From: Paenibacillus sp. JNUCC-31
GTDB lineage: Bacteria; Bacillota; Bacilli; Paenibacillales; Paenibacillaceae
Assembly: GCF_014844075.1 (NCBI RefSeq)
Contig: NZ_CP062165.1
Coordinates: forward strand, 2,108,001-2,172,000
DNA: 64,000 nt
Direction of reading: 5' to 3'
A model generated the notes under the pieces. It was not told the origin of the DNA. It saw nothing but the letters and a program-made list of their open reading frames with translations, and made no database searches. How positions within the stretch are numbered: the stretch's first letter is position 1; each line of letters opens with the position of its first letter. The translations under genes and the position numbers were made by a program. This document shows positions 1,607 to 16,517 of the stretch, in pieces.

Positions 1607-1658
1607 GTTTACGCCTCTCTTCTATTAAAATAAGACGAGCCGAAGCCCGCCCCGTTGT

Positions 1659-1976
1659 TCATATCCGGTCAAGTATCAGATACCGTTGCCCTGCGCTAAA
1701 CATAACGACGGCAACTCGATCCCCAACCTTTAACGCATCCTTAAACGTAATCGTCGTATCCTGTCCGTTAATACTAACCTCACGCTCATGTTCGCGGAGG
1801 TGTTCGCATATTTCGCAATCTTCGGTATCTAAGTCGAAGTTAGCTTCGTCCAGCTTAACGCGAATATCCGGATACGCTATGACCGTACCTACCTCGATAT
1901 CGACGTCTTTGTTATAGCCGAGCTGACGGATGATATCACGCAATTTACTCACGCCGCCGCCTTCTAATAACTGCAT
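1659..1976 (-). CDS. DUF2577-family phage tail protein
   Basis: This 105-residue protein has the C-terminal pattern of DUF2577 proteins: a short beta-rich domain ending LKVGDRVAVVMFSAGQRYLI and then LDRI. In PBSX-like and other myovirus-like prophages this family is encoded among tail and baseplate genes (near XkdR/XkdS homologues), downstream of the tape measure gene, as it is here. A strong ribosome site (AGGGAGGAG) precedes ATG 1976; an internal GTG at 1952 (VSKLRDII) is a possible alternative start. A CEIC pair in the middle might bind metal but is not a known family motif. Confidence 0.7.
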   Translation of the reverse strand: MQLLEGGGVSKLRDIIRQLGYNKDVDIEVGTVIAYPDIRVKLDEANFDLDTEDCEICEHLREHEREVSINGQDTTITFKDALKVGDRVAVVMFSAGQRYLILDRI

Positions 1977-1989
1977 TCGGTCTCCTCCC

Positions 1990-3450: not shown

Positions 3451-3760
3451 GTCCGGGTACCTCCCTCATCGCCTTAATCACGCGCTCGCCCATCTTCGCA
3501 GCCTTTGCGGCCTTTGCTTGCGTAAATCCCTTGTCGAAGTCGGCCAGGCACCGTTCGTATTCAACGAGCGCGCGACCATACGCTTTAACTTTACGGTTGT
3601 TGGAGCGCGAAAGTCTGCCGGCGGCCATACGGAAATCTCTGAATTGTCCAGGGAAACGCGCGGTGAACGTCCAGTCTTGCGGACTTATATACGTCAGTAT
3701 TTGCTCGATTAACGCGAGTGTCTTGTTTACAGTTTCAAGATCCGATTGATGCGTGTTCAT
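3440..3760 (-). CDS. Phage protein of unknown function, upstream of the tape measure gene
   Basis: A 106-residue, basic, helical protein (MNTHQSDLETVNKTLALIEQ at the start). It overlaps the tape measure gene by 11 bp, which implies translational coupling. Tail assembly chaperones are often encoded immediately upstream of the tape measure gene, but no chaperone signature or slippery frameshift sequence was recognised, so that role is only positional inference. It begins just after a hairpin terminator that follows the 3812-4459 gene. Confidence 0.6.
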   Translation of the reverse strand: MNTHQSDLETVNKTLALIEQILTYISPQDWTFTARFPGQFRDFRMAAGRLSRSNNRKVKAYGRALVEYERCLADFDKGFTQAKAAKAAKMGERVIKAMREVPGHVV

Positions 3761-3784
3761 TAAGTTCCTCCTCCTTCATAATAG

Positions 3785-3808
3785 AAAAAGAGACCCCGGA
3801 GGGCCTCT
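3785..3808 (-). terminator. Rho-independent terminator inside the phage operon
   Basis: Read on the minus strand: stem GAGGCCC/GGGTCTC with a short CCGG-type loop and one mismatch, followed by CTTTTTCT. It lies immediately after the stop of the 3812-4459 gene and before the 3440-3760 gene, so it probably reduces or separates expression of the tail genes. Confidence 0.65.
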
Positions 3809-3811
3809 CGC

Positions 3812-4459
3812 TTACTCTATCTCTCTACCTTCTGCAACGCTTGTTCTATAAACCTTGCCGTCCCGGTATGCACGCGCAGTTTCCAGCTCAGAAACACCAT
3901 GTACCTGACGTGATCCACCGCGATAGTGCAACGTGAGCTCCGGAAATGCCGGTTTTACGCTCTTTTCCAATCGGTTCGGATTCGTTTCTTGCCCGGTATT
4001 AAACCAGATGTTATATGCCTCTTTACGTAGCGCGTGGAGGTTTACGATAGATTGAAGGTACTCGTATTTGGCATCCTCGATCGCCTTCAACTTCGCGTCA
4101 TAGTTGTCGTGGAAGTGGCGTAAGGCTTCAACGCGAGCAAGTTCGATGGCTTCGTCGGCCAGTGCGGTGATACGACCGCTTGCGTTAATACTTACGGTGG
4201 TAGAGCGTTCTTCTGCCGCAGCGACATTCACCGTCAGTTCAGCAATCTTGCGTTGCAGGTCCGCTTCCCGCTGGACGTTCGCCTCGCTCGGGTCTGTTAG
4301 CGTGGTATTTTGGGCAACGGCGAGCTCGGAATGCGCGTCCTCTAATTGCTGCCTATACTTGGCCGAGCTATCTTGGTGGAGCTCAACCGCCTTACCTACT
4401 TTTGCCTTCTCCTCTTGGTACGCAGTAATTGCTGTCTGAACTGTTTGTGGTAGTTTCAT
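3812..4459 (-). CDS. Coiled-coil phage protein of unknown function
   Basis: A 215-residue protein dominated by Ala/Glu/Lys/Gln-rich helices with heptad-like spacing over residues about 10-150 (for example QREADLQRKIAELTVNVAAA), consistent with a coiled coil. The last 40 residues are less regular and basic (HYRGGSRQVHGVSELETARA). No catalytic motif is visible. It follows another coiled-coil gene at 4478-5224 and precedes the tape measure cluster, so a structural or scaffold role is possible; this is inference from position and composition only. Confidence 0.65.
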   Translation of the reverse strand: MKLPQTVQTAITAYQEEKAKVGKAVELHQDSSAKYRQQLEDAHSELAVAQNTTLTDPSEANVQREADLQRKIAELTVNVAAAEERSTTVSINASGRITALADEAIELARVEALRHFHDNYDAKLKAIEDAKYEYLQSIVNLHALRKEAYNIWFNTGQETNPNRLEKSVKPAFPELTLHYRGGSRQVHGVSELETARAYRDGKVYRTSVAEGREIE

Positions 4460-4477
4460 ATTGTATCTTCTCCTTTA

Positions 4478-5224
4478 TTAGTTATTTGTGGCTGGGGCAT
4501 CATCAGCCGGACGTTCATCTTCGTGATAGGAATAATAGCTTTCAGTGTTGTTAATGAAGGAACTGTACCGCACACCCAACCCCTCGCGTACGGAATCTTC
4601 AACTACTTTAAGGAAGAATTGCGATTGCTCCATATCATTAGCTGTATCCAAAGAGTTACGCGCTGCCTCTGCATCCGGCGACTCATAGCTCGCGTTCAAG
4701 TTATCGTATTGCTGCGACAAAGCTAAACGCATACCGGAAGAGTTATCCAGCGTCAGAACTGATGTAGACAAGTCCGCATAGGCTTCGGAAATCTTGTGAT
4801 GGAAGTATCTCTCGTCTACTCCTTCGATGAATTGAGTAAGCTTTTGCGCGGCTGCCTTGCCATCTCTCGCGAGCATGAGTTCCGTTCTTAGCTTCCGGAA
4901 TGATTCGTCGAACCGTTCAATTTTCGTTTGGTCAGGCTTCGGAATGTCGGAGTAGATTACCGCTTCTGCGTTTTTGCGAGCGTCTGCTAATAGCGCTTTA
5001 AACTCACGGTGACGTCTGTACGCCATTTGAAGCAGCTCTTTACCGCGAGTCTCACGGACTTTTGCTATTCTATTAGCGCGGCCCTCTTCTGATAGATCGC
5101 GATCTCCTTTTATTGCGTTAATTTCTTCGCGAAGCTTGTCATTAAACTGGCGATAGACACCTGTGTTCGCATTCTTTAATTCGTGGGCTTTCAAGATGCT
5201 TTCTTTCGCTTTTTGTCTACTCAT
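4478..5224 (-). CDS. Coiled-coil phage protein of unknown function
   Basis: A 248-residue, highly charged, helical protein. Basic helices fill the first 110 residues (for example KLREEINAIKGDRDLSEEGR) and the tail is acidic and Tyr/Ser-rich (YYSYHEDERPADDAPATNN). It starts at ATG 5224, overlapping the stop of the 5217-5525 gene by 8 bp. The pattern resembles phage scaffold or minor structural proteins, yet no family was recognised. It pairs by position and composition with the coiled-coil protein downstream. Confidence 0.65.
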   Translation of the reverse strand: MSRQKAKESILKAHELKNANTGVYRQFNDKLREEINAIKGDRDLSEEGRANRIAKVRETRGKELLQMAYRRHREFKALLADARKNAEAVIYSDIPKPDQTKIERFDESFRKLRTELMLARDGKAAAQKLTQFIEGVDERYFHHKISEAYADLSTSVLTLDNSSGMRLALSQQYDNLNASYESPDAEAARNSLDTANDMEQSQFFLKVVEDSVREGLGVRYSSFINNTESYYSYHEDERPADDAPATNN

Positions 5225-5525
5225 TCGTAATCTCTCCTTTGTAATGGTTAATGAGCGCCAGGATAGCCGCTCTTATCTCAGCTTTTGGGATTCCGTAATT
5301 TTTCGTTGGACTGTACTCCTTGCATATTGATATCGCGGTCTTCTCGATCAAACGATATAGCCGCGCATCCTCCATCTTGGCGGCGGTACTCATGACGACA
5401 TTGCGCTCGACGTGACCGTAAATCACCGATAGAAAATCCTCGCGCACATAACTGTCGATGACATAAGGCTCGAACTTAAGCGGTACCTTAGCGCCGTAGT
5501 CGACCGTAAAAGGCTCCGTAATCAT
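5217..5525 (-). CDS. Phage protein of unknown function
   Basis: A 102-residue protein (MITEPFTVDYGAKVPLKFEP at the N-terminus) with a mixed alpha/beta composition. Its ATG at 5525 overlaps the stop of a 48-codon gene in an ATGA arrangement and its own stop overlaps the next start by 8 bp, so it belongs to a translationally coupled run of four genes. In this region phages often carry short tail-tube or head-tail connector proteins, but no specific match is apparent. Confidence 0.6.
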   Translation of the reverse strand: MITEPFTVDYGAKVPLKFEPYVIDSYVREDFLSVIYGHVERNVVMSTAAKMEDARLYRLIEKTAISICKEYSPTKNYGIPKAEIRAAILALINHYKGEITNE

Positions 5526-5668
5526 CTTTTTCGCCCCTTCCGCCGACGCTTGACTTCTTCCGCATGAATTATAGGAGCCATGAACCGGATGTGTGCGCGG
5601 GAAACAGAATCACCGAACACTATCGTTATACCGTCGGAATATGAAACCTTTATCGTGCGCTCAATCAT
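5522..5668 (-). CDS. Small 48-residue phage protein
   Basis: Read on the minus strand from ATG 5668 to TGA 5522-5524, encoding 48 residues that begin MIERTIKVSYSDGITIVFGD and end in a very basic tail (KRRRKGRKR). A strong site, AAGGAGGGG, lies 4-6 bases before the start and the stop overlaps the next ATG as ATGA. These two signals make a real gene likely despite its small size. The basic tail suggests nucleic-acid binding, without further support. Confidence 0.6.
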   Translation of the reverse strand: MIERTIKVSYSDGITIVFGDSVSRAHIRFMAPIIHAEEVKRRRKGRKR

Positions 5669-5800
5669 TGCGTCCCCTCCTTATAAAATACAAGCATATA
5701 CCGCACCCTTTTACGTGATTTCACTTGATTTTAGACACGCAAAATAAGCGCGAGGGGTATTGTCCCTCCGCCTGTTAAAAGCTCTGTATTCACGTAAAAC

Positions 5801-6013
5801 CTACGTAATTTCTGCCACGTTGAACAACCTCTTAGCTACGCGTTTCCTAGCGGTAGGCACGCGATACTGCATACCGGTTACCTGACCTTTGCGCTCGTAC
5901 GTTGCCATTTCGTTAAAGTCCGGGTAACTACGTCGAACCTTTGCAATGACTTCCGGATCTTCCGTGTAGGCTGCGAGGTAATCAGCGCTTAGCCGCCATA
6001 TTACGTTGGACAA
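5801..6013 (-). CDS. Small phage protein of unknown function
   Basis: A 70-residue basic protein, MSNVIWRLSADYLAAYTEDP at the start and rich in Arg/Lys in its last third (TARKRVAKRL). Small proteins with a similar WxLSADYLAAY-like start occur in Bacillales prophages, but no function is known to me. It stands alone between the XRE gene and the 48-residue gene, with about 65 bp to the upstream gene and a 130-bp gap downstream. Confidence 0.55.
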   Translation of the reverse strand: MSNVIWRLSADYLAAYTEDPEVIAKVRRSYPDFNEMATYERKGQVTGMQYRVPTARKRVAKRLFNVAEIT

Positions 6014-6077
6014 TTCGGTTCACTTCCTTAAATTAACGATTTAAATCATTAAAGTTAGAATGCAAAATAAAAGACGC

Positions 6078-6302
6078 TTAAAGCGCCAATTTGTCGGACT
6101 CTTTTGCTCTTTGGATTGCCAATAGCACGTCATCTCCGGTTCCGAATACCTGGGCCAATTTGATCCTCAGATCACGCGAAACATTACGTCTTCCGTTCTC
6201 CACGTCGCTCACGCACGATTGGCTGACGTTTAGTGCTTCCGCAAATTGCGCCTGCGTCATGCCGGCCATTACCCGGATACCGCGTACTCCTGATCCGTCC
6301 AT
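6078..6302 (-). CDS. XRE/Cro-type helix-turn-helix regulator
   Basis: A 74-residue single-domain DNA-binding protein. Residues about 10-65 form a classic HTH_3 fold: IRVMAGMTQAQFAEALNVSQ, then SCVSDVENGRRNVS and helix DLRIKLAQVFG. It is on the same strand as the early and structural genes and opposite to the XRE repressor at 10188, so a Cro-like or late regulatory role is reasonable. An A/T-rich gap of about 80 bp separates it from the upstream gene. Confidence 0.8.
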   Translation of the reverse strand: MDGSGVRGIRVMAGMTQAQFAEALNVSQSCVSDVENGRRNVSRDLRIKLAQVFGTGDDVLLAIQRAKESDKLAL

Positions 6303-6381
6303 ATCACATACCTCCTTCGCTCATTTGGATTAACGCATAAGTCCGAAATAATTAATCAGGAACCTTCGTCCCCTTCCCTAC

Positions 6382-7341
6382 TTACGCGGAGATGTGGACA
6401 GTACGAGGCTTGCGACAGTCTACAAACTTCTCCGTCAAAGGCTGTTCGTACATGTTGTACGTGACCACCTCGCCCCACCGTATGTCATGATTGTTTCCCT
6501 TGTATTTGTTCCGATCACTCGTCCAGCCGTACACCCCGTCCAGGTATCCCGCGCCTTCTGTTCCTTTTTTGTCAATGAGCTGAACGGTAGTCCTGCGTCC
6601 GTGCTTCTCCTTGCGCTTCTTCGCGTTATCCATTTTGGCGAGCTGCCTCGCGTTACCCTTCGGTAATTCGGAACGCTCCTGAATATTGATCAACTCCTCC
6701 GGACTGTAGAACCCGTACTCAAGTTGCATCCGGTTCCGCTCGCCCTCAAGATCAATTGTTCCATACCGTTTATTGCGTTCCCATAAAGTTTTGTACAGGC
6801 GCCGGCAGGTCGGCCCACAATTGAGTTTAGTCGCGCGTCCTTCGAATGGATGTTGGCACACTAGGCATAGCTTCCCGCCGAACTTCTCAACGGCGCCCTC
6901 TGCGTCAGCCTCGCAGTAAATCCGGACGTTATGCTTCCGCATAAACACCCGCGCTCCTGAGCCTGGCGGAACGATAAGGTCACGGTCACGCGGCATGTCG
7001 TACGGATCGCGCATGATAGACAGTCCTTTAACGTGATCTTCCGCGAGAATGTAGTCGGTTAGGCGTTCCAAGCGCTGACATTCGAGCCGCGTACGGAAGC
7101 GGCCGTCTCCGCCTACATGGTTATCGTGGTAATATTCGTCGTACAACTCCGCCATAGTCTCCGCAATCTGCAGACGCTGAGCGAGCGGTTGTTTGGCGTA
7201 CGTCCGATAGTTGGCGCGTGTCCAATTCGGGAAGAGTTCGCAGGCGTTACCGGAGTAATCGTAGCGATCGACGTCGGGCGTGACGATGAGCTGTAAAGCG
7301 GGCCCTGTGCTGTATTCGACTAACTGTTTGGCTGCTTCCAT
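6382..7341 (-). CDS. Phage zinc-finger protein of unknown function
   Basis: The start at ATG 7341 (MEAAKQLVEYS) is fixed by AGGAGGGATTCAC; the open frame upstream has no ribosome site. The 319-residue product has a Cys4-type cluster around residues 160-185 (CLVCQHPFEG, then LNCGPTCRR) expected to bind zinc, followed by a basic segment (NAKKRKEKHGRRTTVQL). This suggests nucleic-acid binding. No nuclease or primase motif could be identified. It lies downstream of the winged-helix replication-type gene in the early region. Confidence 0.65.
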   Translation of the reverse strand: MEAAKQLVEYSTGPALQLIVTPDVDRYDYSGNACELFPNWTRANYRTYAKQPLAQRLQIAETMAELYDEYYHDNHVGGDGRFRTRLECQRLERLTDYILAEDHVKGLSIMRDPYDMPRDRDLIVPPGSGARVFMRKHNVRIYCEADAEGAVEKFGGKLCLVCQHPFEGRATKLNCGPTCRRLYKTLWERNKRYGTIDLEGERNRMQLEYGFYSPEELINIQERSELPKGNARQLAKMDNAKKRKEKHGRRTTVQLIDKKGTEGAGYLDGVYGWTSDRNKYKGNNHDIRWGEVVTYNMYEQPLTEKFVDCRKPRTVHISA

Positions 7342-7532
7342 GTGAATCCCTCCTTGTGGATGTTGACTGGTTTGACTTCCGCGTATCATTTGTTCTTTCT
7401 GTAAAGTCCCTCCGCGCTCTTATATCTCACCATACCTTTATGCGCGGTAACATTTATCCGCTAGGAACGAAGTGACGACGCGTGAGGGATAGTGTTCTTC
7501 TATCCCGAAACTCTGCTCGGTAATGTTTTATT

Positions 7533-7568
7533 TTTCTTTCTCGTTATTCTTTCTCGTTATTCTTTCTC
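7533..7568. repeat. Short tandem repeat, 13-bp unit
   Basis: Two exact copies of GTTATTCTTTCTC (7543-7555 and 7556-7568) preceded by a partial copy TTTCTTTCTC (7533-7542). On the minus strand this is a purine-rich GAGAAAGAATAAC repeat between the 7637-8113 gene and the 6382-7341 gene. It sits in a 295-bp gap without a gene (7342-7636). Confidence 0.7.
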
Positions 7569-7636
7569 TGGTTAAATGGCTTAACAACAGAGGAGAAATG
7601 GTTAACTATCCGAGTTTAAATCGTTTTACATCCACC

Positions 7637-8113
7637 TTATGATGCCTTGGGTTCCGGTTCAAATTCAGCCTGTTTTAGCTGCAATCGGTCCCTAGCCTCT
7701 TCAATCTCACGGTCCGCTGCGTCCATTCTATCTTGAAATGCACTCATCTCCTCAGCATAAATTGCGCGGAACTCTGCCTCGGTTAACGGTTCAAGCGGCT
7801 CGTAAATGCGTTTATTCGCCACCTTCCTCGACTTAGTGGCTTTTAACAGGCCGTATTTTTCGAGAACACTGATATGAGCTCGTATTTTGTACGCGGACAG
7901 CCCGGTTTGAGCGGTTATATCCGACTGGTTGAGCCACACTTTACCGTACATCGCGTGGCCCGACTTGTTCTGACGCCAGGACAGTAGATATCCGTATAGG
8001 CCCACCGTTTCCAGAGTGAACCCGTCGAGTATCGGGTACATCCGGAACAAGATATTTGGCATGCGCGCAAATCCGTCATCGTGGGCGAGTGGTTTTGTTA
8101 CGTCGATTGTCAT
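7637..8113 (-). CDS. Winged-helix protein, replisome-organiser-like
   Basis: A 158-residue protein. Residues about 15-105 look like a winged helix-turn-helix of the HTH_36/replication-initiator type: MPNILFRMYPILDG, then SDITAQTGLSAYKIRAHI and a wing ending LKATKSRKVANKRIYEP. The C-terminal 50 residues form a charged helix. Proteins of this shape start phage DNA replication or regulate early genes. The 680-bp non-coding stretch just upstream, with a SOS box and many hairpins, could be its regulatory region or an origin. Function is inferred. Confidence 0.65.
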   Translation of the reverse strand: MTIDVTKPLAHDDGFARMPNILFRMYPILDGFTLETVGLYGYLLSWRQNKSGHAMYGKVWLNQSDITAQTGLSAYKIRAHISVLEKYGLLKATKSRKVANKRIYEPLEPLTEAEFRAIYAEEMSAFQDRMDAADREIEEARDRLQLKQAEFEPEPKAS

Positions 8114-8458
8114 TGTTCACATCTCCTTTTTCACTATGGTTTGTATGGGAATCGGAATAATCCGCGAACCCTCTACTTTTTATGTTGCCATCTGAGAGCA
8201 TTTCGCACGGTTTTTGTCTCTACTCGTTTTAACGATGCCCGCTCGCTTGCATCACACTTAACGGAAAATTTCACTATACCTTACTAGTGCCGCCCGTCTC
8301 ATATCTCGGGCATATCACAGAAAAATCCTTATACTACGCTGTTCCCGACCGATTAGAATCTCGGGTAAGTTTCTCATAATATATAAGGACACCAAATTTT
8401 CAGTTTTTCATATACTTTGTGTCTAATTTGTGAACATTACATTAATCCGAAACCAATC
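8114..8458. other. Non-coding, AT-rich stretch
   Basis: No gene is apparent on either strand. The segment becomes increasingly AT-rich from 8300 onward, with runs such as TCATAATATATAAGG near 8374, and leads into the SOS-box and hairpin region at 8459-8773. It probably holds the promoter of the 7637-8113 gene on the minus strand, although no single promoter stands out. Confidence 0.4.
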
Positions 8459-8472
8459 GGAACATATGTTCG
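8459..8472. promoter_or_regulatory. Putative LexA/DinR (SOS) box
   Basis: The sequence GGAACATATGTTCG contains the perfect palindrome GAACATATGTTC (8460-8471) and matches the Gram-positive LexA consensus CGAAC-N4-GTTCG at all but the first base. It is the only such box noticed in the prophage and lies in the large non-coding gap between early genes, where a SOS-controlled promoter would make sense for prophage induction. Confidence 0.7.
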
Positions 8473-8493
8473 TATAACTTTATATAACAAACG

Positions 8494-8773
8494 GAAGAGA
8501 GCGTGCCTGAATGCGATAGCTAATCGCCACTCTCTTCGCCAGCGTTAGAAGCGCAGTTGCCGCTACACTCCGAATCTATGTTAAGCGATGTGCCTACGAG
8601 AGGTTGCCGCCTCTCCATCGCGTTAAAAGCTCCGGCCCAACCGTTGGCGCGGAAAGGCCGGATAAACTACGAACTGCATAGCGATCCAAATCGATAGTTG
8701 GCGCTACCGACTCAGTACAGTACGTTCCATGACGTGCGTCTTCTCCCCATTAGACAACCGAGCGGTTAGCGCC
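8494..8773. ncRNA. Candidate structured RNA or replication-origin region
   Basis: A run of nested stems without a gene. GAAGAGAG (8494-8501) pairs with CTCTCTTC (8530-8537) around GCGAT/ATCGC (8513-8517, 8523-8527). TTAAGCGATG (8581-8590) pairs with CATCGC-G-TTAA (8616-8626) around GAGAGG/CCTCTC (8598-8603, 8610-8615). CCGGCC (8632-8637) pairs with GGCCGG (8656-8661). GGCGCTACCG (8700-8709) pairs with CGGTTAGCGCC (8763-8773) with one bulge. The strand is undecided: plus would start after the SOS box; minus would end in the first stem followed by a T-rich run. A DNA-level role as an origin is an alternative. Confidence 0.45.
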
Positions 8774-8795
8774 ACCCGTGGCAGTGTCATTAGGT

Positions 8796-9155
8796 TCATC
8801 GAAGGTGTTCGAGCTTGAGATTAATATCTCCGCGGTCCTTTGTCCAAAGCATGATATCGATTAGGAACTGCAGCCCGTTCATCTGCTTTAGCTCCGTAAT
8901 AATTGTTTCTATTAAAGCGCGGGTATCCATGCCTTCGACTTCGTTGGCGATAATCAGCCCGCCGGAATCTCCGTCAATATACAAGTGATCCATGTGCGGA
9001 GCCTTATGTACCTGGCGTAGCCAAAGATTGCCCGCGTCCATAATGAAAATGTGGCGTTCGTTCAATACATAGCCTTCGTATAGTGCGAATTGGTGATCCT
9101 CGTCAAACGGACCAAGTATCATCGAAGCAAGTTCAAGTTCAACCTTCGTGCTCAT
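8796..9155 (-). CDS. Phage early protein of unknown function
   Basis: A 119-residue acidic protein (MSTKVELELASMILGPFDED at the start) with alternating beta-type segments and a helical C-terminus. Its ATG at 9155 overlaps the TAA of a 43-codon gene as TAATG, so it is probably translated by coupling. It is the third of four small early genes read leftward from the 10-kb divergent promoter. No family was recognised. Confidence 0.6.
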   Translation of the reverse strand: MSTKVELELASMILGPFDEDHQFALYEGYVLNERHIFIMDAGNLWLRQVHKAPHMDHLYIDGDSGGLIIANEVEGMDTRALIETIITELKQMNGLQFLIDIMLWTKDRGDINLKLEHLR

Positions 9156-9286
9156 TATGCGACCACTTCCTTCACAATCATTACAAGCGCGTACACGAAT
9201 TTGAGCATACGGATAAAGTTACGTTTATATGAAGTGTTTACTTCCTCGTTGTTACGCGTAGTTGGCATATTGGTAGTTGCAATCAT
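9155..9286 (-). CDS. Small 43-residue phage protein, possible membrane-associated helix
   Basis: Read on the minus strand from ATG 9286 to TAA 9155-9157. GGAGGTAACACAA precedes the start, and the stop overlaps the next ATG by one base. The product has a polar N-terminal half and a hydrophobic, basic C-terminal helix (FIRMLKFVYALVMIVKEVVA). The start lies inside the 3' end of the previous gene, a 35-bp overlap. The ribosome site and coupling favour a real gene. Confidence 0.55.
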   Translation of the reverse strand: MIATTNMPTTRNNEEVNTSYKRNFIRMLKFVYALVMIVKEVVA

Positions 9287-9707
9287 TTGTGTTACCTCCT
9301 TCAATAATAAATCCGACTTCGGCAAGCTTGGCGGCTGACAGTGCGGCGACTCCTTCGGTTGTCCGTGGACTCAATCCGAGAATCCTCCGTAGTGCTCCCG
9401 GCAAGATAACGAGCTGCTGTCCGGACGTGAGATGCGTTACGACGAAATTGCCTCCGTGCTTCTCGCTCAGTTCGTATGTAATCCGCGAGGATAACGGATC
9501 GGATATGTCTGCGATGATGCTAAGCGCTTCAAGCTCCGCCGCGGATGCCTCAACGTTGGCTGTTCGGTTACGGCGGTTGATGCGCGGGAATACTGCTAGA
9601 AACAGGTTATGCAGAATGTTGCGTTCGATACCGTTGAGAGTGACGATGAAGCTTGCGGCGATGCGATCGCGAGTGTACGGAAGTGTTACCGTTGGAACGA
9701 TTTTCAT
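9252..9707 (-). CDS. Phage early protein of unknown function
   Basis: The start at ATG 9707 (MKIVPTVTLPYTRDRIAAS) follows AAGGAGGCGTAATA; the frame upstream lacks a site and overlaps the preceding gene. The 151-residue product has a positively charged middle (VFPRINRRNRTANVEAS) and no recognised motif. It is the second gene read leftward from the early promoter. The last 12 residues are encoded over the start of the 43-codon gene. Confidence 0.6.
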   Translation of the reverse strand: MKIVPTVTLPYTRDRIAASFIVTLNGIERNILHNLFLAVFPRINRRNRTANVEASAAELEALSIIADISDPLSSRITYELSEKHGGNFVVTHLTSGQQLVILPGALRRILGLSPRTTEGVAALSAAKLAEVGFIIEGGNTNDCNYQYANYA

Positions 9708-9711
9708 ATTA

Positions 9712-9993
9712 TTACGCCTCCTTATGGGGAATAAGTTTTTGGAGTAATTCAACCGCGCTCATGTCACGGATATTATTAATGAAACTAAGGTCACCGACTT
9801 TTAAATCGAATATTGAAGGCTCGCCGTAAGTTGTGACGTACTCTACCCCATCAAAGCTAATGCGCTCCATGACTGCGAGACTAAACTCAGTGTCAACGTA
9901 AATCGCGTGATGTTCATCTATAAGCGTGCCAGCGTATTCAATCCGCCACGGTCCATCGACGTCTACGCCTTTGGTTACGATAGTGATCGACAT
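9712..9993 (-). CDS. Phage early protein of unknown function (first early gene)
   Basis: The start at ATG 9993 (MSITIVTKGVDVDGPWRIEY) is fixed by AAGGAGGTACGCAATT; the frame open to 10035 has no site. The 93-residue acidic product is beta-rich at the N-terminus. It is the first gene downstream of the divergent operator region on the minus strand, the usual place of a Cro-like or antirepressor gene, but it has no helix-turn-helix. No family was recognised. Confidence 0.6.
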   Translation of the reverse strand: MSITIVTKGVDVDGPWRIEYAGTLIDEHHAIYVDTEFSLAVMERISFDGVEYVTTYGEPSIFDLKVGDLSFINNIRDMSAVELLQKLIPHKEA

Positions 9994-10035
9994 AATTGCG
10001 TACCTCCTTGCGGGATTTAATGCGGACCAGTACAA

Positions 10036-10187
10036 TGTTGCTTGATAAAGATTTTCGAAACTTTTTTATACCTATATTCGTATATTCGCTTATCTGCTTT
10101 TTAGTATATACGCCTTTTAGTATAGAGTCAACACTTTATTTACGTATATCCGGATATTCGTTATAATTAAAGCAAGGGGGCATTCAT
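10036..10187. promoter_or_regulatory. Divergent promoter and operator region of the prophage switch
   Basis: A very AT-rich intergenic stretch between early genes (minus) and the XRE repressor (plus). For the repressor, TTTACG (10139-10144), 17 bp and TATAAT (10162-10167) form a good promoter. Between them lies the perfect palindrome ATATCCGGATAT (10146-10157), extended by CGTA...TTCG. Related motifs (CCTATATTCGTATATTCG) occur around 10069-10087 and a direct repeat TTTTAGTATA occurs twice around 10097-10126. These are likely repressor operators controlling both directions, including autoregulation of the repressor. Confidence 0.7.
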
Positions 10188-10400
10188 GTGCGGAAAATAA
10201 CTATTAGGCTTAACGAGTTAATGCAAGAACGTGGATTGACTCAAACGAAATTATCCGAGATGACAGGAGTACGCCAAGCGGCTATCTCTGAAATGTCACG
10301 GAATATAAGGGAACAGATAAATCTTCGTACTCTTGAAAAAATTGCTGACGCTCTCGAGATAGACAACATAGCTGATTTAATCAAAATTGAATATAAATAG
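10188..10400 (+). CDS. XRE-family prophage repressor (small)
   Basis: A 70-residue helix-turn-helix protein with a GTG start at 10188 behind AGGGGGCATTC. The whole protein is one HTH_26/XRE domain: MQERGLTQTKLSEMTGVRQA, recognition helix AISEMSRN and a final pair of helices (LRTLEKIADALEIDNIADLI). Such single-domain proteins act as dimeric repressors. It is transcribed opposite to the early genes from an operator-bearing promoter, so it is the best candidate for the lysogeny repressor. It lacks a LexA-like peptidase domain, so SOS cleavage is not expected. Confidence 0.8.
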   Translation: MRKITIRLNELMQERGLTQTKLSEMTGVRQAAISEMSRNIREQINLRTLEKIADALEIDNIADLIKIEYK

Positions 10401-10415
10401 AGGAGTGCTTCGTTT

Positions 10416-10679
10416 ATGGCAGACACATACCCAAAATTAATAAAGACTTGTTTAACTTGTTCTGGAAAAGGAAAAATAGACTCACCTGAATTAGAACGCG
10501 ATATAGACAGGATACAAGATACTCAAGGCCTTTCTTATGTAGATGCAGAGCGCCAAGCGATATCTCGGTTTAGAGGCGAACCTCACATCTTTTGTTCTGC
10601 TTGTTCTGGCAAAGGGGAAGTCTTATCGGAGCTTGGAGTAAAGGTTAAACGATTTATTAGCGAGTACAACGAGGTATAA
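10416..10679 (+). CDS. Small DnaJ-type zinc-finger protein
   Basis: An 87-residue protein starting at ATG 10416 behind AGGAGTGCTTCGTTT, 15 bp after the repressor stop. It has two CxxCxGxG units, TCLTCSGKGKI near the N-terminus and FCSACSGKGEV near the C-terminus, which together can form one zinc site as in the DnaJ central domain. Between them is a charged helical linker. No J-domain is present. It forms an operon with the repressor and ends before the terminator at 10707. Its role in lysogeny is unknown. Confidence 0.65.
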   Translation: MADTYPKLIKTCLTCSGKGKIDSPELERDIDRIQDTQGLSYVDAERQAISRFRGEPHIFCSACSGKGEVLSELGVKVKRFISEYNEV

Positions 10680-10907
10680 GTGAATACATACCGGAAGACA
10701 ACGAAGAGAGCCGTTAATCATACGGCTCTTTTTTGTGTGTATCTACCGTGTAATCAGCGCGTTAGGGCTTCGGTGAGGGAAGCGTACCCGGACGGCCAGG
10801 CGCGCTATATGTACGGGGATTTGACGGGGAGAACGCGGAATAACCGCAAACCCTGCGTGGGCTGCGGTTTTCGTAGTTATAAATACTTGTTTCCTCACAA
10901 GACCTGA
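10680..10907 (+). pseudogene. Uncertain ORF with Cys pairs, interrupted by a terminator
   Basis: A 75-codon frame beginning with GTG directly after the previous stop. A strong intrinsic terminator (10707-10734) lies inside its first third, which argues against expression of the whole frame. The later part has a protein-like look with Cys residues and aromatics (YPDGQARYMYGDLTGRT, then KPCVGCGFRSYKY), so it may be the 3' remnant of a phage zinc-ribbon gene. It overlaps the 3' end of the minus-strand insert at 10895-12007. Confidence 0.3.
10707..10734 (+). terminator. Rho-independent terminator of the repressor operon
   Basis: Perfect stem AGAGCCGT (10707-10714) / ACGGCTCT (10722-10729) with a 7-base loop followed by TTTTT and G. 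It lies 28 bp after the stop of the zinc-finger gene and ends the repressor operon. Confidence 0.85.
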
Positions 10908-12007
10908 AATGATTTCAGTTCCACTACCTCCCAAGTCTTACCAGAGGTATCAATGACACCTGTAATTCTAACTTGTTTCTTTTCTTTGTGGGCATCACAA
11001 GCACGTTTATAGTCATCTTGGTTCAACTCTAACTTCACACTATGTCTCTTATTCTCGTAGGTAGAAATTATATTAATACTACCATGTGTTAATTCTGAGT
11101 TGGATGATAATTTCGATATATACCCTTCTAGTTCGACGTCCTCAGATTTCTTTTCTCTCAAAGCTTCAGCTAAAACTTTTATTATGTGATAGTCAGATGA
11201 GTTTAAAGTAATTTTTTCTGGCAACTGTTCTGTATTCTCAATGGCTTTTGAATATTTAATCTTTGACTCCAGCTTGACCGATTCATTTTCGTCATAAAAT
11301 GAAAGTAAAGCATCGCAAATGTTAGCATTAATCCCTTCCGTGTAACCTCTTTCCACTAAATCATTAAGTTTGTTATTTTCATCATTGAAGCTTTCTATTT
11401 GATGCATAGATTTGTGTATACGCTTCATTACTCTGCGTGAGAATGGTTCCGTAATGAGAGTATCGTTTTCAATAGCTATTTCTATATCGTCGTTTACAAG
11501 AGATCCTGACTCCACTGTTACTACGTAACTACCGTGGGCAGTTTGTCCCAGCTTGAAAAAATCACTATAACTTTGCGCTTTTTGTGAGGCTCTTTTAAAA
11601 ACCCTTTGAGGAAGTTCTTCTGTATAGGCTGCTGAGACTATTAAGTTTTTAAGACCTTTTATTAAGTTTGATGCATAGCTTAAAGGTATGGCTCCATCTT
11701 CCGCAAACGATGAAACGATTCTAATTTCAAGTTTGTCGGTTGGTGAATCATAGCTAATTATATCTTTAAATATTAAGTCCCTACTTCTATTTTCAAAATC
11801 GCTTAAAATACCCAATGCAAAGTGCAAGCGCTGGTGGTAATCAGGGAATGACTCCTTAGCTGGTAATAAAACTGAAATCGGACTAGAATCGACAATGTCA
11901 TGAGAAAAAACAAAAACATTAGGATTTGGGAAGTCCTTCATTCGGTTCCATCCATTATTTCTGAGATATCCAACAAAATTACTTAAACTTATAGTATCAA
12001 GACTCAT
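10895..12007 (-). CDS. Unknown 370-residue protein, partner of the DUF4365 gene (candidate accessory/defence module)
   Basis: A 370-residue protein starting at ATG 12007, overlapping the DUF4365 stop by 4 bp (ATGA), so the two are one translational unit. The N-terminal third (SNFVGYLRNNGWNRMK, then ISVLLPAKESFPDYHQRLHF) resembles large uncharacterised protein families with a YLRxxGW...LP...DYxxR pattern. The C-terminus (KKQVRITGVIDTSGKTWEVV) looks like a small beta-barrel. No catalytic motif is evident. The gene is AT-rich with codon use unlike the surrounding phage genes, suggesting separate acquisition. A defence or accessory role is inferred from the partner and the moron-like placement between repressor and integrase. 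Confidence 0.6.
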   Translation of the reverse strand: MSLDTISLSNFVGYLRNNGWNRMKDFPNPNVFVFSHDIVDSSPISVLLPAKESFPDYHQRLHFALGILSDFENRSRDLIFKDIISYDSPTDKLEIRIVSSFAEDGAIPLSYASNLIKGLKNLIVSAAYTEELPQRVFKRASQKAQSYSDFFKLGQTAHGSYVVTVESGSLVNDDIEIAIENDTLITEPFSRRVMKRIHKSMHQIESFNDENNKLNDLVERGYTEGINANICDALLSFYDENESVKLESKIKYSKAIENTEQLPEKITLNSSDYHIIKVLAEALREKKSEDVELEGYISKLSSNSELTHGSINIISTYENKRHSVKLELNQDDYKRACDAHKEKKQVRITGVIDTSGKTWEVVELKSFQVL

Positions 12008-12507
12008 AAGTCTTCACCCATCTTTGTTTTATTCATAAGTTCTCTTAATGACACTTCAGTTAGTACCTGATTCTTATGAATACTTACCCTGACAGTATCG
12101 GCGTTACTCGTTGGTTGCATACCTTTAAGCGAGCACCACCACGCACAATTTTTCAAAATTGTTCCTCTTTCGGATATCGTTAACCATTCATTTTGGTCCT
12201 TTGGTAGCACAAAAAGTACCAACATTCTAGGTGTACCTACTTCTTCTGAAACAAGGTCATTATAGTTCTTGGCTTTCAAATCATATTTTATGTAGTTATC
12301 TTCCTGAACAATATTTATTGTTGTCTTGAGTTGAATATCAATATTGTAACCACTATCACAGTATCTCCCATTTATTTTTTGAATATCTCTAAATATACCA
12401 TCAAATCCATAGTCAAAATCAGGGCGGGAAAAATTCATTCCTGCTCTATGTGCTACTGCTATAGCGTAAGCTCTACTAAGTCCTTCCTTTATGTGGCTCT
12501 CAATCAT
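12004..12507 (-). CDS. DUF4365 domain protein (PD-(D/E)XK nuclease-like)
   Basis: The start at ATG 12507 (MIESHIKEGLSRAYAIAVAH) is chosen because AGAGGTGTAGAAATAAT precedes it; the frame is open for another 43 codons, but that part is AT-rich leader. The 167-residue product has the DUF4365 layout: an N-terminal helix with Glu, DFDYGFDGIF around residue 33, and YNIDIQLKTT around residue 58, which fits the E...D...QxK core of the PD-(D/E)XK nuclease fold, then a C-terminal part with WLTISERG and WWCSLKG. It likely acts on nucleic acid. It leads a two-gene operon that is clearly more AT-rich than the phage around it. Confidence 0.7.
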   Translation of the reverse strand: MIESHIKEGLSRAYAIAVAHRAGMNFSRPDFDYGFDGIFRDIQKINGRYCDSGYNIDIQLKTTINIVQEDNYIKYDLKAKNYNDLVSEEVGTPRMLVLFVLPKDQNEWLTISERGTILKNCAWWCSLKGMQPTSNADTVRVSIHKNQVLTEVSLRELMNKTKMGEDL

Positions 12508-12623
12508 ATTATTTCTACACCTCTGAGAATATGTAAGTAGTAAACCTGACTCTAGGATACCACTCTGTAAAATTTTATGAAATAGTTTTCTATAATAGAA
12601 TACATAAAATATATTAAAATCGA

Positions 12624-12725
12624 CCTCCCAACGCATACAATCGCGTGGCAGGCGAAGCGATATTCGAAATTGGGCGCCGATTGAAGCACATTAAAGAGAC
12701 GAAGATGCGTCTTTTTCACATTTGA
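12624..12725 (+). pseudogene. Remnant of a DUF3102-like phage gene
   Basis: A plus-strand frame between stops encodes YNRVAGEAIFEIGRRLKHIK and then ETKMRLFHI before TGA 12723-12725. The AGEAIFEIGRRLKHIKE part closely resembles the conserved core of DUF3102-type prophage proteins (typically VAGqaIfEIGrRLKhVKE...). Both ends are missing: there is no start with a ribosome site, and the conserved continuation is replaced by a short hairpin/T-run (GACG...CGTCTTTTT at 12698-12716). It lies exactly at the right border of the AT-rich DUF4365 insert, so that insertion or a related deletion probably destroyed the gene. Confidence 0.45.
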
Positions 12726-12804
12726 TTCCGCGCATCAAGATACCTACGGTCCGTAAAAGCAGAAAAAACGCCCACCTCCGGAGAGATGCGCTAGGTCTTG
12801 CGTA

Positions 12805-13101
12805 TTATAGAGGACGCGGCCATTCCCATCCGTGACGCACGTATTCTTTCGCATAATCCCGCAAGTCTTCCTTCTCCGCGTCATCAAGCGTTACAGTCGC
12901 CAGATATGCGTAACACTCTTCCGCCTCATAGTCGATTACAACGTCTTCGATAACGCGGTCGCGGTCGTCTCCGAAGGATCGTTCCCGAACTTTGTGGCCG
13001 ACTTGCGGCATCATACCCGTTTCGTATGCGCGGACGACTTGCGTAGAGAGTCCGGAAGTGGTTGCGATCGTTTGAACGATGATAACGTCAATTGTAGTCA
13101 T
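12805..13101 (-). CDS. Phage protein of unknown function
   Basis: A 98-residue acidic protein starting at ATG 13101 behind ACGGAGGTATTACGC. The N-terminus (MTTIDVIIVQTIATTSGLST) is hydrophobic and could form a helix, followed by VVRAYETGMMPQVGHKVRER and a charged helical C-terminus ending WEWPRPL. The segment TSGLSTQVVRAYETG has a helix-turn-helix-like rhythm, but the call is weak. It lies 30 bp upstream of nothing coding on its strand except the AT-rich insert, and follows the membrane-anchored gene. Confidence 0.5.
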   Translation of the reverse strand: MTTIDVIIVQTIATTSGLSTQVVRAYETGMMPQVGHKVRERSFGDDRDRVIEDVVIDYEAEECYAYLATVTLDDAEKEDLRDYAKEYVRHGWEWPRPL

Positions 13102-13130
13102 GCGTAATACCTCCGTAAGAATTTATGTAG

Positions 13131-13835
13131 TTACATGTTCTTTTCTTTTGGTAGACTAAACTTTTCGAGCTCATTGTATATATCATCTTGGATACGGTAG
13201 TTTCGCGCAAGCTGAAATGGTATTGTGTAGTCACCAAACATATTATCCAGCACCTGATCCATATCTACTTTCTCAGCTTGATCTCGGCGCCAAGACAGAT
13301 AAACTGCGTTATTCTCTCCGCCTCCTGCGTTATCAATTTTCACATCTATACACACCTCATATATGTTTGGGTTATCGAGCAATATCTTCGAATAAGCAAT
13401 GAGGGAACCTCCCGCCTTCTTCACAAAGTCTTTTTCGTCCCAAAACGTACCCGGATTAATCGTGAGTTCAACTCGCTCACCGTAAACGTCCGGACTGGAT
13501 ACAAATTTACGGAACGTTTCGTCAGTAAGCGGAATTGCAAACGCACCTCCAACGTTATCTAAAAGGGCTTTACGAACGTTCTCCTCGGTTACTTCTGCCG
13601 TGACCCACTTAAACGCGGGCTTTACCGGCTCTGGGTCTGCCTTGGGCTCTGGAATTGGCTCCGGGTCGGGCGCTTTTGTTTCGGCCTGAACTACGGGGGT
13701 AGATGCTTGTGTACTTACTGGCTGCTCGGTCTCTTCTTCGTCAAGCCCCCCAACCATTTTCAGCAAAACGATAAATAAAACAGCGAAAATAGTAAGCTTC
13801 ACATAAATCGGCATAACCTTCTTATCTCCTCGCAT
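13131..13835 (-). CDS. Membrane-anchored phage lysogenic protein of unknown function
   Basis: The start at ATG 13835 (MRGDKKVMPIYVKLTIFAVL) follows AAAGGGGGCGCGTCA; an in-frame ATG at 13856 is possible. The 234-residue product has one N-terminal membrane segment (residues about 9-26, IYVKLTIFAVLFIVLLKM) with a basic cytoplasmic start, then an acidic and Pro-rich linker (PDPEPIPEPKADPEPVKP), and a C-terminal domain of about 150 residues expected outside the cell. Being expressed from the integrase side, it could alter the lysogen surface, for example superinfection exclusion; that is inference. It ends 29 bp before the next gene. Confidence 0.6.
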   Translation of the reverse strand: MRGDKKVMPIYVKLTIFAVLFIVLLKMVGGLDEEETEQPVSTQASTPVVQAETKAPDPEPIPEPKADPEPVKPAFKWVTAEVTEENVRKALLDNVGGAFAIPLTDETFRKFVSSPDVYGERVELTINPGTFWDEKDFVKKAGGSLIAYSKILLDNPNIYEVCIDVKIDNAGGGENNAVYLSWRRDQAEKVDMDQVLDNMFGDYTIPFQLARNYRIQDDIYNELEKFSLPKEKNM

Positions 13836-13891
13836 TGACGCGCCCCCTTTAGTCAAATATACAATTTATCCCTGTGAAAATAAAGAAGAAA

Positions 13892-13934
13892 AGGCGCAGC
13901 CCTCAACGGAACTTAATCCGTGAGAACTGCGCCT
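13892..13934 (-). terminator. Rho-independent terminator of the recombinase operon
   Basis: AGGCGCAG (13892-13899) pairs with CTGCGCCT (13927-13934), with an inner stem CTCAACGGA/TCCGTGAG. On the minus strand the stem is followed by TTTTCTTCTTTATTTT. It lies just after the stop of the first recombinase gene at 13939. Confidence 0.8.
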
Positions 13935-13938
13935 CATT

Positions 13939-14904
13939 TCATTCTTCGTTTTCCTCAACGTTTAACTTCGTTAGTCTCTTTCTCTTCGGCTGTTCATCCG
14001 CGATCTTATTTAATGGTGAAGTCTTCGCATGTTCGATCTTCAAGTCATCGTTAATCAACGCAACATATCGCTTAGTCATTTCCATCGTGGTATGGCCGAG
14101 TGTCTTTTGTACCGCGAAGGATGACGAGCCGTTTCTGATCGATTCCAAGGCGTAGATATGACGAAGGTCGTAAGGCCGGATGTGAACGCCGATCTCTTTG
14201 CTATGTCGCTCAAGCCTATCGCCCCAGACATGCCTATTCAGCGCGTTTCCTTCATACGTACAGAATATCGGAACCTTATCTGCCCATCCCTGCGGCCGCG
14301 CACGGATTAGTTTATTCATCGCCTTAATTGTTGCGTCAGATATCGGAAGATCCCTTGAACGCCGGGTCTTCGCCGTTAACGCCGTTACGTGGATTTCGCG
14401 AGCCTTGGGACGGAAATTGCTCGGCACAAGCGCCAGGGCTTCCGACGGCCGAATACCGGTATCCAGCGTCAATAAGATTAACGCGTAATCACGTAGTCCG
14501 ACGAATGTTGATTGATCCGGAACCTTGAGGAGTTCGCGGAGAACTTCGATATCAACGCTGACCCGGCGACCTTCTTCACGGCGCTTCTTAAGATTAGCAA
14601 GTGGATTCTCCCTGATATAATTATTTTCTACGCACCATTTAAGGAATGTGCGTAAGTACACGAGACGACCGTTGTAAGTTGCTGGCGCTATGTCAGGCTG
14701 TGCGAGGTGTTCATATAGCATTGATTTTAGATTATGGGGAGAATCCCAGGCGTCAGGATAGCGCGACATAAACAGCGTCATGTTTCGCTCATAATCATCA
14801 ATTGTATGTTTACTTAACCCCTGCACTCTCTTCCAATTAATAAACTCCGCGATGCACTCTTCCCACGTTCGAATTTTAAGGCGGCCCTCATATCGTTTCC
14901 TCAT
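13939..14904 (-). CDS. Tyrosine recombinase/integrase (second of a tandem pair)
   Basis: A 321-residue phage-integrase-family protein. The N-terminal SAM-like core-binding domain spans about residues 8-100 and the catalytic domain the rest. Visible catalytic positions: Arg in DTGIRPSEALAL, Lys in TAKTRRSRDLP, the PYDLRHIYA box, His in TLGHTTMEMT and the nucleophile Tyr in KRYVALI. The first His of HxxR is Tyr here (YDLRH), a substitution also seen in other phage integrases. It overlaps the upstream recombinase by 4 bp (ATGA type), so both are made from one transcript, ending at the terminator at 13892. Confidence 0.9.
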   Translation of the reverse strand: MRKRYEGRLKIRTWEECIAEFINWKRVQGLSKHTIDDYERNMTLFMSRYPDAWDSPHNLKSMLYEHLAQPDIAPATYNGRLVYLRTFLKWCVENNYIRENPLANLKKRREEGRRVSVDIEVLRELLKVPDQSTFVGLRDYALILLTLDTGIRPSEALALVPSNFRPKAREIHVTALTAKTRRSRDLPISDATIKAMNKLIRARPQGWADKVPIFCTYEGNALNRHVWGDRLERHSKEIGVHIRPYDLRHIYALESIRNGSSSFAVQKTLGHTTMEMTKRYVALINDDLKIEHAKTSPLNKIADEQPKRKRLTKLNVEENEE

Positions 14905-15941
14905 CTCTCTACTCGCTTCTTAATGAACTTACCCGTAGGTGAGAATTGATCGTGACTGCGCCGAACATCTTCCGTATCCATCTGAATATATCTTCGCATC
15001 GTACGAATATCAGACCATCCGCCCATCTTCTGTATAGTGAACGGATCAGCACCGTTAATGACCATAGCGCGCGCCCATGTATGCCGATATACGTGCGCGG
15101 TCATCTTCTTCCCTTCAACGCCCGCCTTCTCACCGTGATACTTCAACCTCTTATTAAACTGGTTCGCAGAGATGGGGTCACCGAAGCACGAAAGGAATAA
15201 CCGATCCGTTGTGAAGTGCTGCCTGTTCTCATCTATAAGCTGCAGGATTAACTTCGCCACCGCGGCAGAGAACGGAACCATACGCGGCTTACGATTTTTA
15301 TTGGCCTCACCGGATAATGTGATAAACCGCGTCTGAAAGTCGATGTCGCCAATACGTAGTCCGAGCATTTCAGATACGCGGCAACCGCTATCGAGCATCA
15401 ACATAATGCCTACATAATCCCGGAATCCAACGAAGTCCCTCCGGTTCGGCTGCGCTAAGATGGCATTAATCTCTTCATCCGTTAGACAGTTTGTTAAGTC
15501 CACGTCCTGGCGTAGCAACTTCACTTTGCTTATCGGATTAAGTTCAATTAACTCGTCGCGCTCAAGCTGATTGAAGATCGCCTTTAACGTTCGTATACGG
15601 ATATTAACGGTCGTGTCCGATAAACCTACGCGCTGACCCTCCGCAGATATGTGCTTATGTCCTTCATAACGAACGCGATCGTACTTCATATACGAAATGT
15701 GGTCACGAATAATACCGATGTCGATATGCTCAATGAGCGTGATATTTGGATGGAACTCGCGCAGCCAGGTAACGAAATAACCGTAATGCTTTGCGTAATC
15801 CGTGAGCGTCCTTTCGCGTAGTCCCTCCACCTTCTTCGCGCTGATTACGAAATCAAGCGCCTGTTCTAATGTAAGTTCCGGGTATAGACGTACATCACGC
15901 GCGCCAACTGGAGCACGCCGTTCTCGTTTCTTTAACGCCAT
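14901..15941 (-). CDS. Tyrosine recombinase/integrase (first of a tandem pair)
   Basis: A 346-residue phage-integrase-family protein with an N-terminal core-binding domain (residues about 20-130) and a full catalytic domain: Arg in DSGCRVSEMLGL, Lys in NKNRKPRMVPF, HVYRHTWAR, the GGWSDIRTMRRY segment with the Tyr nucleophile. It starts at ATG 15941 with GGAGGTCTTTTTGTT upstream. The basic N-terminus (MALKKRERRAPVGARDVRLY) could bind arm sites. Position next to iscA and the repeat-bearing gap at 15942-16160 makes it the likely integrase; why two are encoded is not clear. Confidence 0.9.
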   Translation of the reverse strand: MALKKRERRAPVGARDVRLYPELTLEQALDFVISAKKVEGLRERTLTDYAKHYGYFVTWLREFHPNITLIEHIDIGIIRDHISYMKYDRVRYEGHKHISAEGQRVGLSDTTVNIRIRTLKAIFNQLERDELIELNPISKVKLLRQDVDLTNCLTDEEINAILAQPNRRDFVGFRDYVGIMLMLDSGCRVSEMLGLRIGDIDFQTRFITLSGEANKNRKPRMVPFSAAVAKLILQLIDENRQHFTTDRLFLSCFGDPISANQFNKRLKYHGEKAGVEGKKMTAHVYRHTWARAMVINGADPFTIQKMGGWSDIRTMRRYIQMDTEDVRRSHDQFSPTGKFIKKRVER

Positions 15942-16160
15942 AACAAAAAGACCTCCACAACGTAGTTAGTACGAGACTAATACGCCACAGAGGCCGTGAT
16001 CCACAACCCTGAAAAGGCATTTCAAGGGTTGATAACGTTCATCGTCCGGGGTTGTTAACCTACCGAAATACCTGCGCAATCCGCAATCCCCACCGTTTAG
16101 GCTACCGTTACAGGCTTGCGCCCGTCATCCGTTACCGAATGCGCTCAATCCCGCGTCAGA
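15942..16160. other. Prophage right-end region with repeats; probable attachment-site vicinity
   Basis: A gap without genes between the integrase start and the 3' end of iscA. It holds an inverted repeat AACCCTGAAA (near 16003) / TTTCAAGGGTT (near 16020), and two adjacent imperfect direct repeats ACCGTTTAGGCT (16092-16103) and ACCGTTACAGGCT (16104-16116), with a further CCGTTACCG at 16129. Such repeats beside an integrase commonly bind the recombinase arm domain. The crossover core is expected here or in the last codons of iscA; it cannot be fixed without the other end. Confidence 0.5.
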
Positions 16161-16517
16161 TTAACAATCCTTATCCGGTACGCCCGCTTCTTCCTTCGTA
16201 CGGAAGGATGAGCCGCAGCCGCATGTTGCCACTGCATTCGGGTTGTGAATGGTGAAACCGCCGGACATGCCGGATTCTTCAAAATCAATTTCGAGGCCAT
16301 TCAGATATTTCAGGTTTTCCTTCTCCACAACTACCTTCATATCCTGAATATCCATATAGAGGTCATCATCGGATTCTTTATCGTCAAAGCCCATGGCGTA
16401 CGAAAAGCCGGTACAACCGCCCGGTGCTACGCCAAGACGCAAGAACATACCAGGTGTCTCTTGCTGTGCAAGCATTTCTTTCAATCTGTCAGCAGCTGTT
16501 TCGCTGATGTTAATCAT
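16161..16517 (-). CDS. erpA: IscA/HesB-family iron-sulfur cluster carrier
   Basis: A 118-residue A-type carrier that binds and hands on Fe-S clusters. The three conserved Cys are visible: GGCTGFSY near residue 35 and CGCGSSF near residue 99. The protein starts MINISETAADRLKEMLAQQE at ATG 16517 behind AAGGAGAGTGACCTGGC. Length is normal for the family (B. subtilis YutM). The prophage abuts its 3' end, and the last residues (GVPDKDC) may be supplied by the attachment site. The leader carries the 167-bp inverted-repeat element described separately. Symbol erpA or yutM is by family only. Confidence 0.85.
   Translation of the reverse strand: MINISETAADRLKEMLAQQETPGMFLRLGVAPGGCTGFSYAMGFDDKESDDDLYMDIQDMKVVVEKENLKYLNGLEIDFEESGMSGGFTIHNPNAVATCGCGSSFRTKEEAGVPDKDC

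Follow-up and report, generated by a model that had tools for sequence, protein, structure and literature searches.

Within a 64,000-nt stretch of the Paenibacillus sp. JNUCC-31 genome (contig NZ_CP062165.1, positions 2,108,001 to 2,172,000; the window, to which all positions refer unless a genome or locus is named), we analyzed two overlapping minus-strand genes, here termed A and B. Our preferred reading, to which we give somewhat better than even odds (roughly 0.55), is that they encode an anti-phage module of two proteins, belonging to the PDC-M02 type, which a satellite-like element carries as cargo; A would be the cutting and B the sensing and scaffolding subunit. The pair comprises the following features.

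12004..12507, minus strand: gene A, a 167-aa predicted DUF4365/DREN-type PD-(D/E)XK nuclease (PDC-M02A) with predicted catalytic residues D36, Q59 and K61.
10895..12007, minus strand: gene B, a 370-aa partner protein (PDC-M02B) without a Pfam match, with an OB-like fold predicted at residues 286–370.
12004..12007, minus strand: ATGA overlap in the sequence, containing the stop of A and the start of B and suggesting translational coupling.
10895..11152, minus strand: C-terminal OB-like domain of B (residues 286–370; predicted fold).

The original prediction, made from the DNA alone, had described two AT-rich, ATGA-coupled genes on the minus strand; both are present, and the ATGA is common to A and B. 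The reading frame of A is open upstream of 12507, as far as 12636. We set its start at 12507 because this ATG is preceded by AGAGGTG ten bases upstream and because the closest homologues are 166–167 aa long. The GC content of the pair is 35.3%, compared to 48.5% for the remaining element sequence within the window and 46.7% for the host part. This lies near the minimum of the 64 kb: among 624 equally long windows (mean 46.8%, sd 3.0), only two have a lower value, and both overlap the pair.

Although the original prediction knew of no named system with this exact pair, both subunits are listed in PADLOC, and the pair is therefore a known candidate system, PDC-M02. A matches the PDC-M02A model PDLC04290 with 189.7 bits (residues 3–163) and B matches the PDC-M02B model PDLC04318 with 580.3 bits (residues 2–370), in each case over nearly the full length. 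PDC-M02 calls for adjacent genes, and here they overlap at 12004–12007; we found no difference and consider the pair a member. The PADLOC entry carries no description. The PDC-x entries have been described as candidate systems that are unpublished (PMC11811056), most of which still await validation (PMC12988326). Our literature search returned no publication naming PDC-M02, the relevant papers on DUF4365 were those on Argonautes, and searches combining OB-fold or DREN with anti-phage, as well as a search on satellites in Paenibacillus, yielded nothing on the pair. As far as these searches show, PDC-M02 is catalogued but has no published description; PHROGs likewise holds A and B each as a family with no assigned function. 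The fold and mechanism given below are proposals of the present analysis, which goes beyond the catalogue entry by linking the nuclease to SPARDA's DREN domain, predicting an OB-like fold in the partner, documenting how nearly strict the pairing is, placing the pair in a cargo slot, and locating relatives of it within BREX-related gene runs.

Gene A matches Pfam DUF4365 with 76.7 bits (cut-off 24.3; residues 9–160). Its predicted fold is that of DREN, with the D...Q-x-K residues present, and in fold comparison it also resembles junction resolvases. In an alignment of A homologues (38 taken of 72, the window's own A counted in the 72), K61 is invariant and D36 and Q59 are nearly invariant. The Pfam match, predicted fold and conserved residues bear out the DUF4365 identity and PD-(D/E)XK-like features proposed earlier, and we regard A as a predicted nuclease of the PD-(D/E)XK type whose motif residues are conserved. 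The motif itself needed correction: the conserved set is D36-Q59-K61, whereas D57, the D of the DIQLK motif highlighted originally, is variable (32/43).

In B, a Pfam scan found no match at E ≤ 1, and its structural matches are dominated by the OB domain. The closest named homologues, at 79% identity, come from Paenibacillus; the B alignment comprises all 20 homologues. One of these, P0006, carries the source label DUF4935, which we did not adopt since B has no Pfam match at that threshold. Sequence searches against solved structures with A and B, as single sequences or as profiles, gave chance-level matches or none. As a side observation, the predicted fold of a 101-aa protein of Nodularia phage vB_NspS-kac65v162 (BFVD A0A482MK90) closely fits the OB domain of B (84 alignment columns, rmsd 1.5, 32% identity). 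It is possibly a stand-alone OB relative or else a decoy; sequence searches for further stand-alone OB relatives found none.

To describe the pairing across genomes, we compiled 56 loci with a B match: the window (1), a search of the phylum (2), genome contigs (29), viral sequences (11), and named phage and plasmid records (13; 2 of 4 phage and 11 of 13 plasmid records were taken, omitting records that repeat another). The genome contigs yielded their 29 loci when scanned with the alignment A1 as query, and no relative when scanned with B alone. B is full-length in 48 of the 56 loci. At 44 of these 48, A lies directly upstream on the same strand (in one of them, L042, A is cut by the contig start), which supports the earlier claim to the extent that the two genes form one unit. 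After accounting for near-copies, 34 of 43 complete pairs remained at B identities below 90%. In all 34, B starts between 11 bases before and 4 bases after the stop of A, a range that takes the B start nearest to the A stop and hence favours short spacings, and a 4-base overlap is usable in 20. The distances between A proteins and between B proteins correlate across the 34 pairs (r 0.80), a value reached by none of 2000 permutations, with shared ancestry uncorrected; vertical descent alone could likewise produce such a correlation.

Four full-length B loci have no intact adjacent A. In L026, a transposase stands between the genes and A is broken; in L051, an insertion-sequence-like fragment occupies the place of A (both neighbours named from reading of their translations); in L055, the record edge cuts the locus and a weak A remnant of 16.6 bits is visible; L027 is a plain orphan B without A. 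The eight partial B loci (L012, L016, L029–L033 and L056) are mostly broken or end at contig ends. Among them, L056 has a broken A-like reading frame, and L016 and L033 have upstream room, yet no A. Effector swapping was considered and rejected, as the replacement gene sought at B loci without an adjacent A did not appear, and remnants, breaks or orphans were found instead. We also rejected a mini-B variant consisting of only the N-terminal part and the OB domain. Its two examples, L030:5862-6474 and L033:7576-8178, have the middle of B deleted (about residues 92–277) by comparison with their nearest relatives. The deletion is out of frame in L030 (DNA 86% identical to L013) and in frame in L033, which is without A; we attribute both deletions to decay or assembly loss rather than to a true variant.

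The partnership also extends to the type of DUF4365 protein involved. Of 398 genomes sampled across the phylum, 14 have DUF4365 and three have B. High A-profile scores (171 bits or more) were confined to DUF4365 proteins of the three B genomes, and the 13 other DUF4365 places scored at most 15.7 bits or nothing. We therefore conclude that a special DUF4365 subfamily accompanies B.

The comparison with SPARDA suggests how such a pair might work. In the literature covered, DREN is the effector of this Argonaute-guided system; the SPARDA DREN domains, the nearest characterized nucleases and closest relatives of A, act collaterally and, according to the part of PMC12205087 covered, are inactive alone. 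A shares with them the DREN (DUF4365) fold and the D and Q-x-K residues. In SPARDA, however, the nuclease is fused to APAZ, for which A has no room, as it measures 167 aa in all with DUF4365 spanning 9–160 in a DREN fold. Its partner there is a short Argonaute (MID-PIWI), while here it is B, with an OB-like fold where PIWI would lie. We regard a sensor-gated DREN nuclease as the most economical reading. A would probably be idle as a monomer, like the DREN domain of SPARDA. The C-terminal OB fold of B would probably bind nucleic acid of an invading phage, in the simplest case exposed single-stranded DNA, while its N-terminal part would hold and oligomerize A. Oligomerized A could then cut DNA by means of a metal bound by D36 and Q59, plus K61. 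B would thereby fill the role of Argonaute-APAZ, providing recognition by its OB fold and assembly by its remaining parts. The analysis shows pairing, gene overlap and co-divergence of A and B, conservation of the motif residues, predicted folds, and contexts that are mobile and in some cases defence-type; nucleic-acid sensing by B, activation by oligomerization and a function in phage defence are inferred, and cutting may be either collateral (abortive) or confined to the invader.

The element that carries the pair is bounded by a 96-bp repeat, 100% identical between window positions 16161–16256 and genome positions 2107359–2107454, at the 3′ end of a HesB-like gene (a label read from the ORF 16161–16517). 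From this repeat follows an element length of 16.9 kb, both copies counted, covering window positions 1–16256 (genome 2107359–2124256). Its features around the pair are as follows.

10188..10400, plus strand: small helix-turn-helix repressor-like gene, matching PHROG transcription-regulation families (best 41.7 bits).
10870..13877, no strand: variable cargo slot, from blastn against sister elements and from their slot contents.
12805..13101, minus strand: 98-aa slot ORF with a weak match to the phage family phrog_17183 (29.7 bits), not assigned to the pair.
13131..13856, minus strand: 241-aa slot ORF with a hydrophobic N-terminal stretch and a proline-rich part, not assigned to the pair.
13939..14904, minus strand: tyrosine recombinase 1 (phrog_1 integrase, 149.9 bits).
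14901..15941, minus strand: tyrosine recombinase 2 (phrog_1 integrase, 171.2 bits), overlapping recombinase 1.
16161..16256, minus strand: putative attachment-site copy, with the second copy at genome 2107359–2107454, outside the window.

A further ORF (10416–10679, plus strand) lies between the repressor gene and the pair, and the 98-aa and 241-aa ORFs lie between the pair and the recombinases; the latter ORF has no family match beyond a weak likeness to a TonB linker. Elsewhere the element encodes a terminase-small-subunit-like protein (84.5 bits), a DnaD/replication-initiation-like protein (28 bits), and a 486-aa protein with weak tail tape measure likeness (14.7 bits). A PHROGs scan of 18 element ORFs, with at least six further small ORFs of up to 166 aa left aside, revealed neither capsid, portal nor large terminase. 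The prophage setting proposed originally is thus correct in that a repressor-like gene and recombinases flank the pair, but the carrier is unlike a full prophage and resembles a small satellite-like element. It shares with phage-inducible satellite-type (PICI-like) elements a length of ~17 kb, site-specific integration, integrases and a cargo slot, as well as genes resembling a small terminase and a DnaD-type replication protein. Among 50,697 phage records, neither the element DNA at 5800–10400 nor one backbone protein found a match.

Related elements occur within the genus. In a set of 75 genus genomes (own included), the full-length recombinase pair was found at 80–87% identity in five others, and parts of it in some more; B is present in the own genome only. 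We retrieved eight stretches, of which one (L094) is the element itself and five served to define the slot. The two left out hold a 2.8-kb remnant (L099) and a different, 7-kb insertion (L101) at the same site. In four of the five sisters (L095–L098) the site repeat recurs 16.6 to 18.4 kb away, and in L100 the left end was not seen. These data point to a family of satellite-like elements, about 17 kb in size, whose integration site is the 3′ end of a HesB-like gene.

In blastn, homology of the five sisters to the window ends at 10749–10869 and restarts at 13878–13896. Since the sisters hold different genes between these ends, the pair represents one filling of a cargo slot. The slots of L095 (12794–16259) and L097 (13014–15174) contain a protein of 433–436 aa with a PD-(D/E)XK-like EVKG motif by reading, and one of its two copies reaches 13.5 bits with Pfam Mrr_cat, below the cut-off. 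That of L096 (11815–14482) contains an FRG-domain protein matching PDC-S15 with 158.7 bits, and those of L098 (12330–15017) and L100 (9251–12814) a membrane-type protein with sub-threshold SLATT_1 likeness. Only the FRG gene has a clear match to a defence-candidate model. The sister cargo genes have a GC content of 34–38% within stretches of 46–47%. The accessory locus by the integrase that had been proposed is accordingly present here, as a slot beside two integrases, but does not reflect a general rule: a tyrosine-recombinase-like ORF was found in only 3 of 32 other loci, using a profile seeded with the window's two integrases that does not address serine recombinases, and in stretches of differing length.

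Beyond the genus, pairs occur on Leptospira phage LE1, on plasmids from several phyla and in many metagenome-assembled genomes (MAGs), and a pair forms the opening two genes of a mycobacterial prophage record. On the Entomospira p28 plasmid, the pair neighbours DUF262, Abi and HicA-type genes. On the Rhizobium p3 plasmid (L057:1-5090), it lies near a STY4851/ECs_5259-type gene and a large DEAD/DEAH helicase, a layout that may be Druantia-like. A neighbour survey covered 126 ORFs of 25 chosen loci, of which 119 were scanned and seven left out (three in L006, one in L017, two in L024 and one in L028). Among the families listed (25 of 176 from PADLOC and 25 of 82 from Pfam) are type IIG and III restriction-modification, MADS, BrxH, DrmD, HmaA and YhcG-like neighbours, alongside phage portal, terminase and plain metabolic genes. 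As there was no control set, we claim no enrichment.

In three MAG loci (L009:1121-6612, L013:2270-11092 and L014:1073-9623), the pair is part of a same-strand gene run. The order is a ~940-aa P-loop ATPase, a PglZ-like gene, a STAND-type ATPase (L013), A, B and a DUF1156-type methyltransferase, and L014 additionally has an SNF2/DrmD-like helicase; both flanks are visible in L013, the left in L009 and the right in L014. Homologous left flanks are present in L030 (including STAND and A) and L033 (ATPase and PglZ-like, without A), where B has decayed. The run ATPases match none of the Pfam and NCBIfam families scanned, DUF499 included; their sole match is to a MADS model, at 21 bits. PglZ models reach 19–21 bits in L009 and L033 and have no match in L013, which is linked through 70% identity to L009, and DUF1156 models reach 24–29 bits against a cut-off of 24. 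These BREX-related assignments are weak by profile and derive in part from gene order and a Walker motif.

Against this background, three other explanations can be weighed. Direct restriction, which we consider unlikely, would have B recognize phage DNA by its single-stranded, modified or forked state and bring A to it, so that the invader alone is cut, without collateral killing; a methyltransferase or helicase is unmatched among the window's slot ORFs, however, and the collateral action of the SPARDA DREN domains, in the literature covered, argues against it as well. Our confidence is lower again for a toxin–antitoxin pair, in which A would be a constitutively active toxic nuclease, inhibited by B and freed by phage infection or loss of B. 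The arrangement would suit it, with the nuclease gene first, the partner second and overlapping, and near-strict pairing, and in L027, and in L051 with its insertion-sequence-like fragment, a full-length B exists with no A at all, as an antitoxin can. Yet B exceeds A more than twofold in size and includes an OB-like domain, and a nuclease that is inactive alone, as reported for SPARDA DREN, would need no inhibitor. Improbable, finally, is a service to the element instead of the host, by interfering with helper or rival phages or by processing the intermediates of its own replication or excision: the satellite-like carrier, the resemblance of A to junction resolvases, and the pairs on Leptospira phage LE1 and the mycobacterial prophage would favour it, but five sisters with the same backbone are maintained without the pair, and contigs and plasmids from many phyla hold relatives as well.

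The preferred reading of a sensor-gated anti-phage module can be taken one step further, though only tentatively and with more doubt than belief on our part: PDC-M02 could be an Argonaute-free counterpart of SPARDA, in which DREN is gated by an OB-fold sensor of single strands and serves as a plug-in effector. As a stand-alone nuclease, DREN would be switched on through oligomerization induced by foreign single-stranded nucleic acid; on phages, satellites and plasmids the pair would act alone, and in BREX-related operons it would have been incorporated to form a second, collateral nuclease layer. The homologous pairs inside the MAG runs resemble in their surroundings the gene set of the DUF499-centred BREX-related (BR) Type 3 systems, as far as the covered parts of PMC12839542 describe it; those parts mention no such pair, and the word DUF4365 is absent from the text searched. 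In the window, in contrast, the ATPase, methyltransferase, helicase and PglZ set is unmatched in the four slot ORFs and the pair stands alone, BREX-type genes being found only around its distant relatives.

If DREN is indeed gated by an OB-fold sensor, the same effector could be driven by a guide-free trigger. This would show how bacterial immune systems exchange effectors and sensors, and a new collateral nuclease responsive to single-stranded DNA might come of it. For Paenibacillus, the locus points to a family of small elements with a readable slot, in which five sisters hold three other kinds of low-GC cargo, and this slot may be a good hunting ground for new defence genes.
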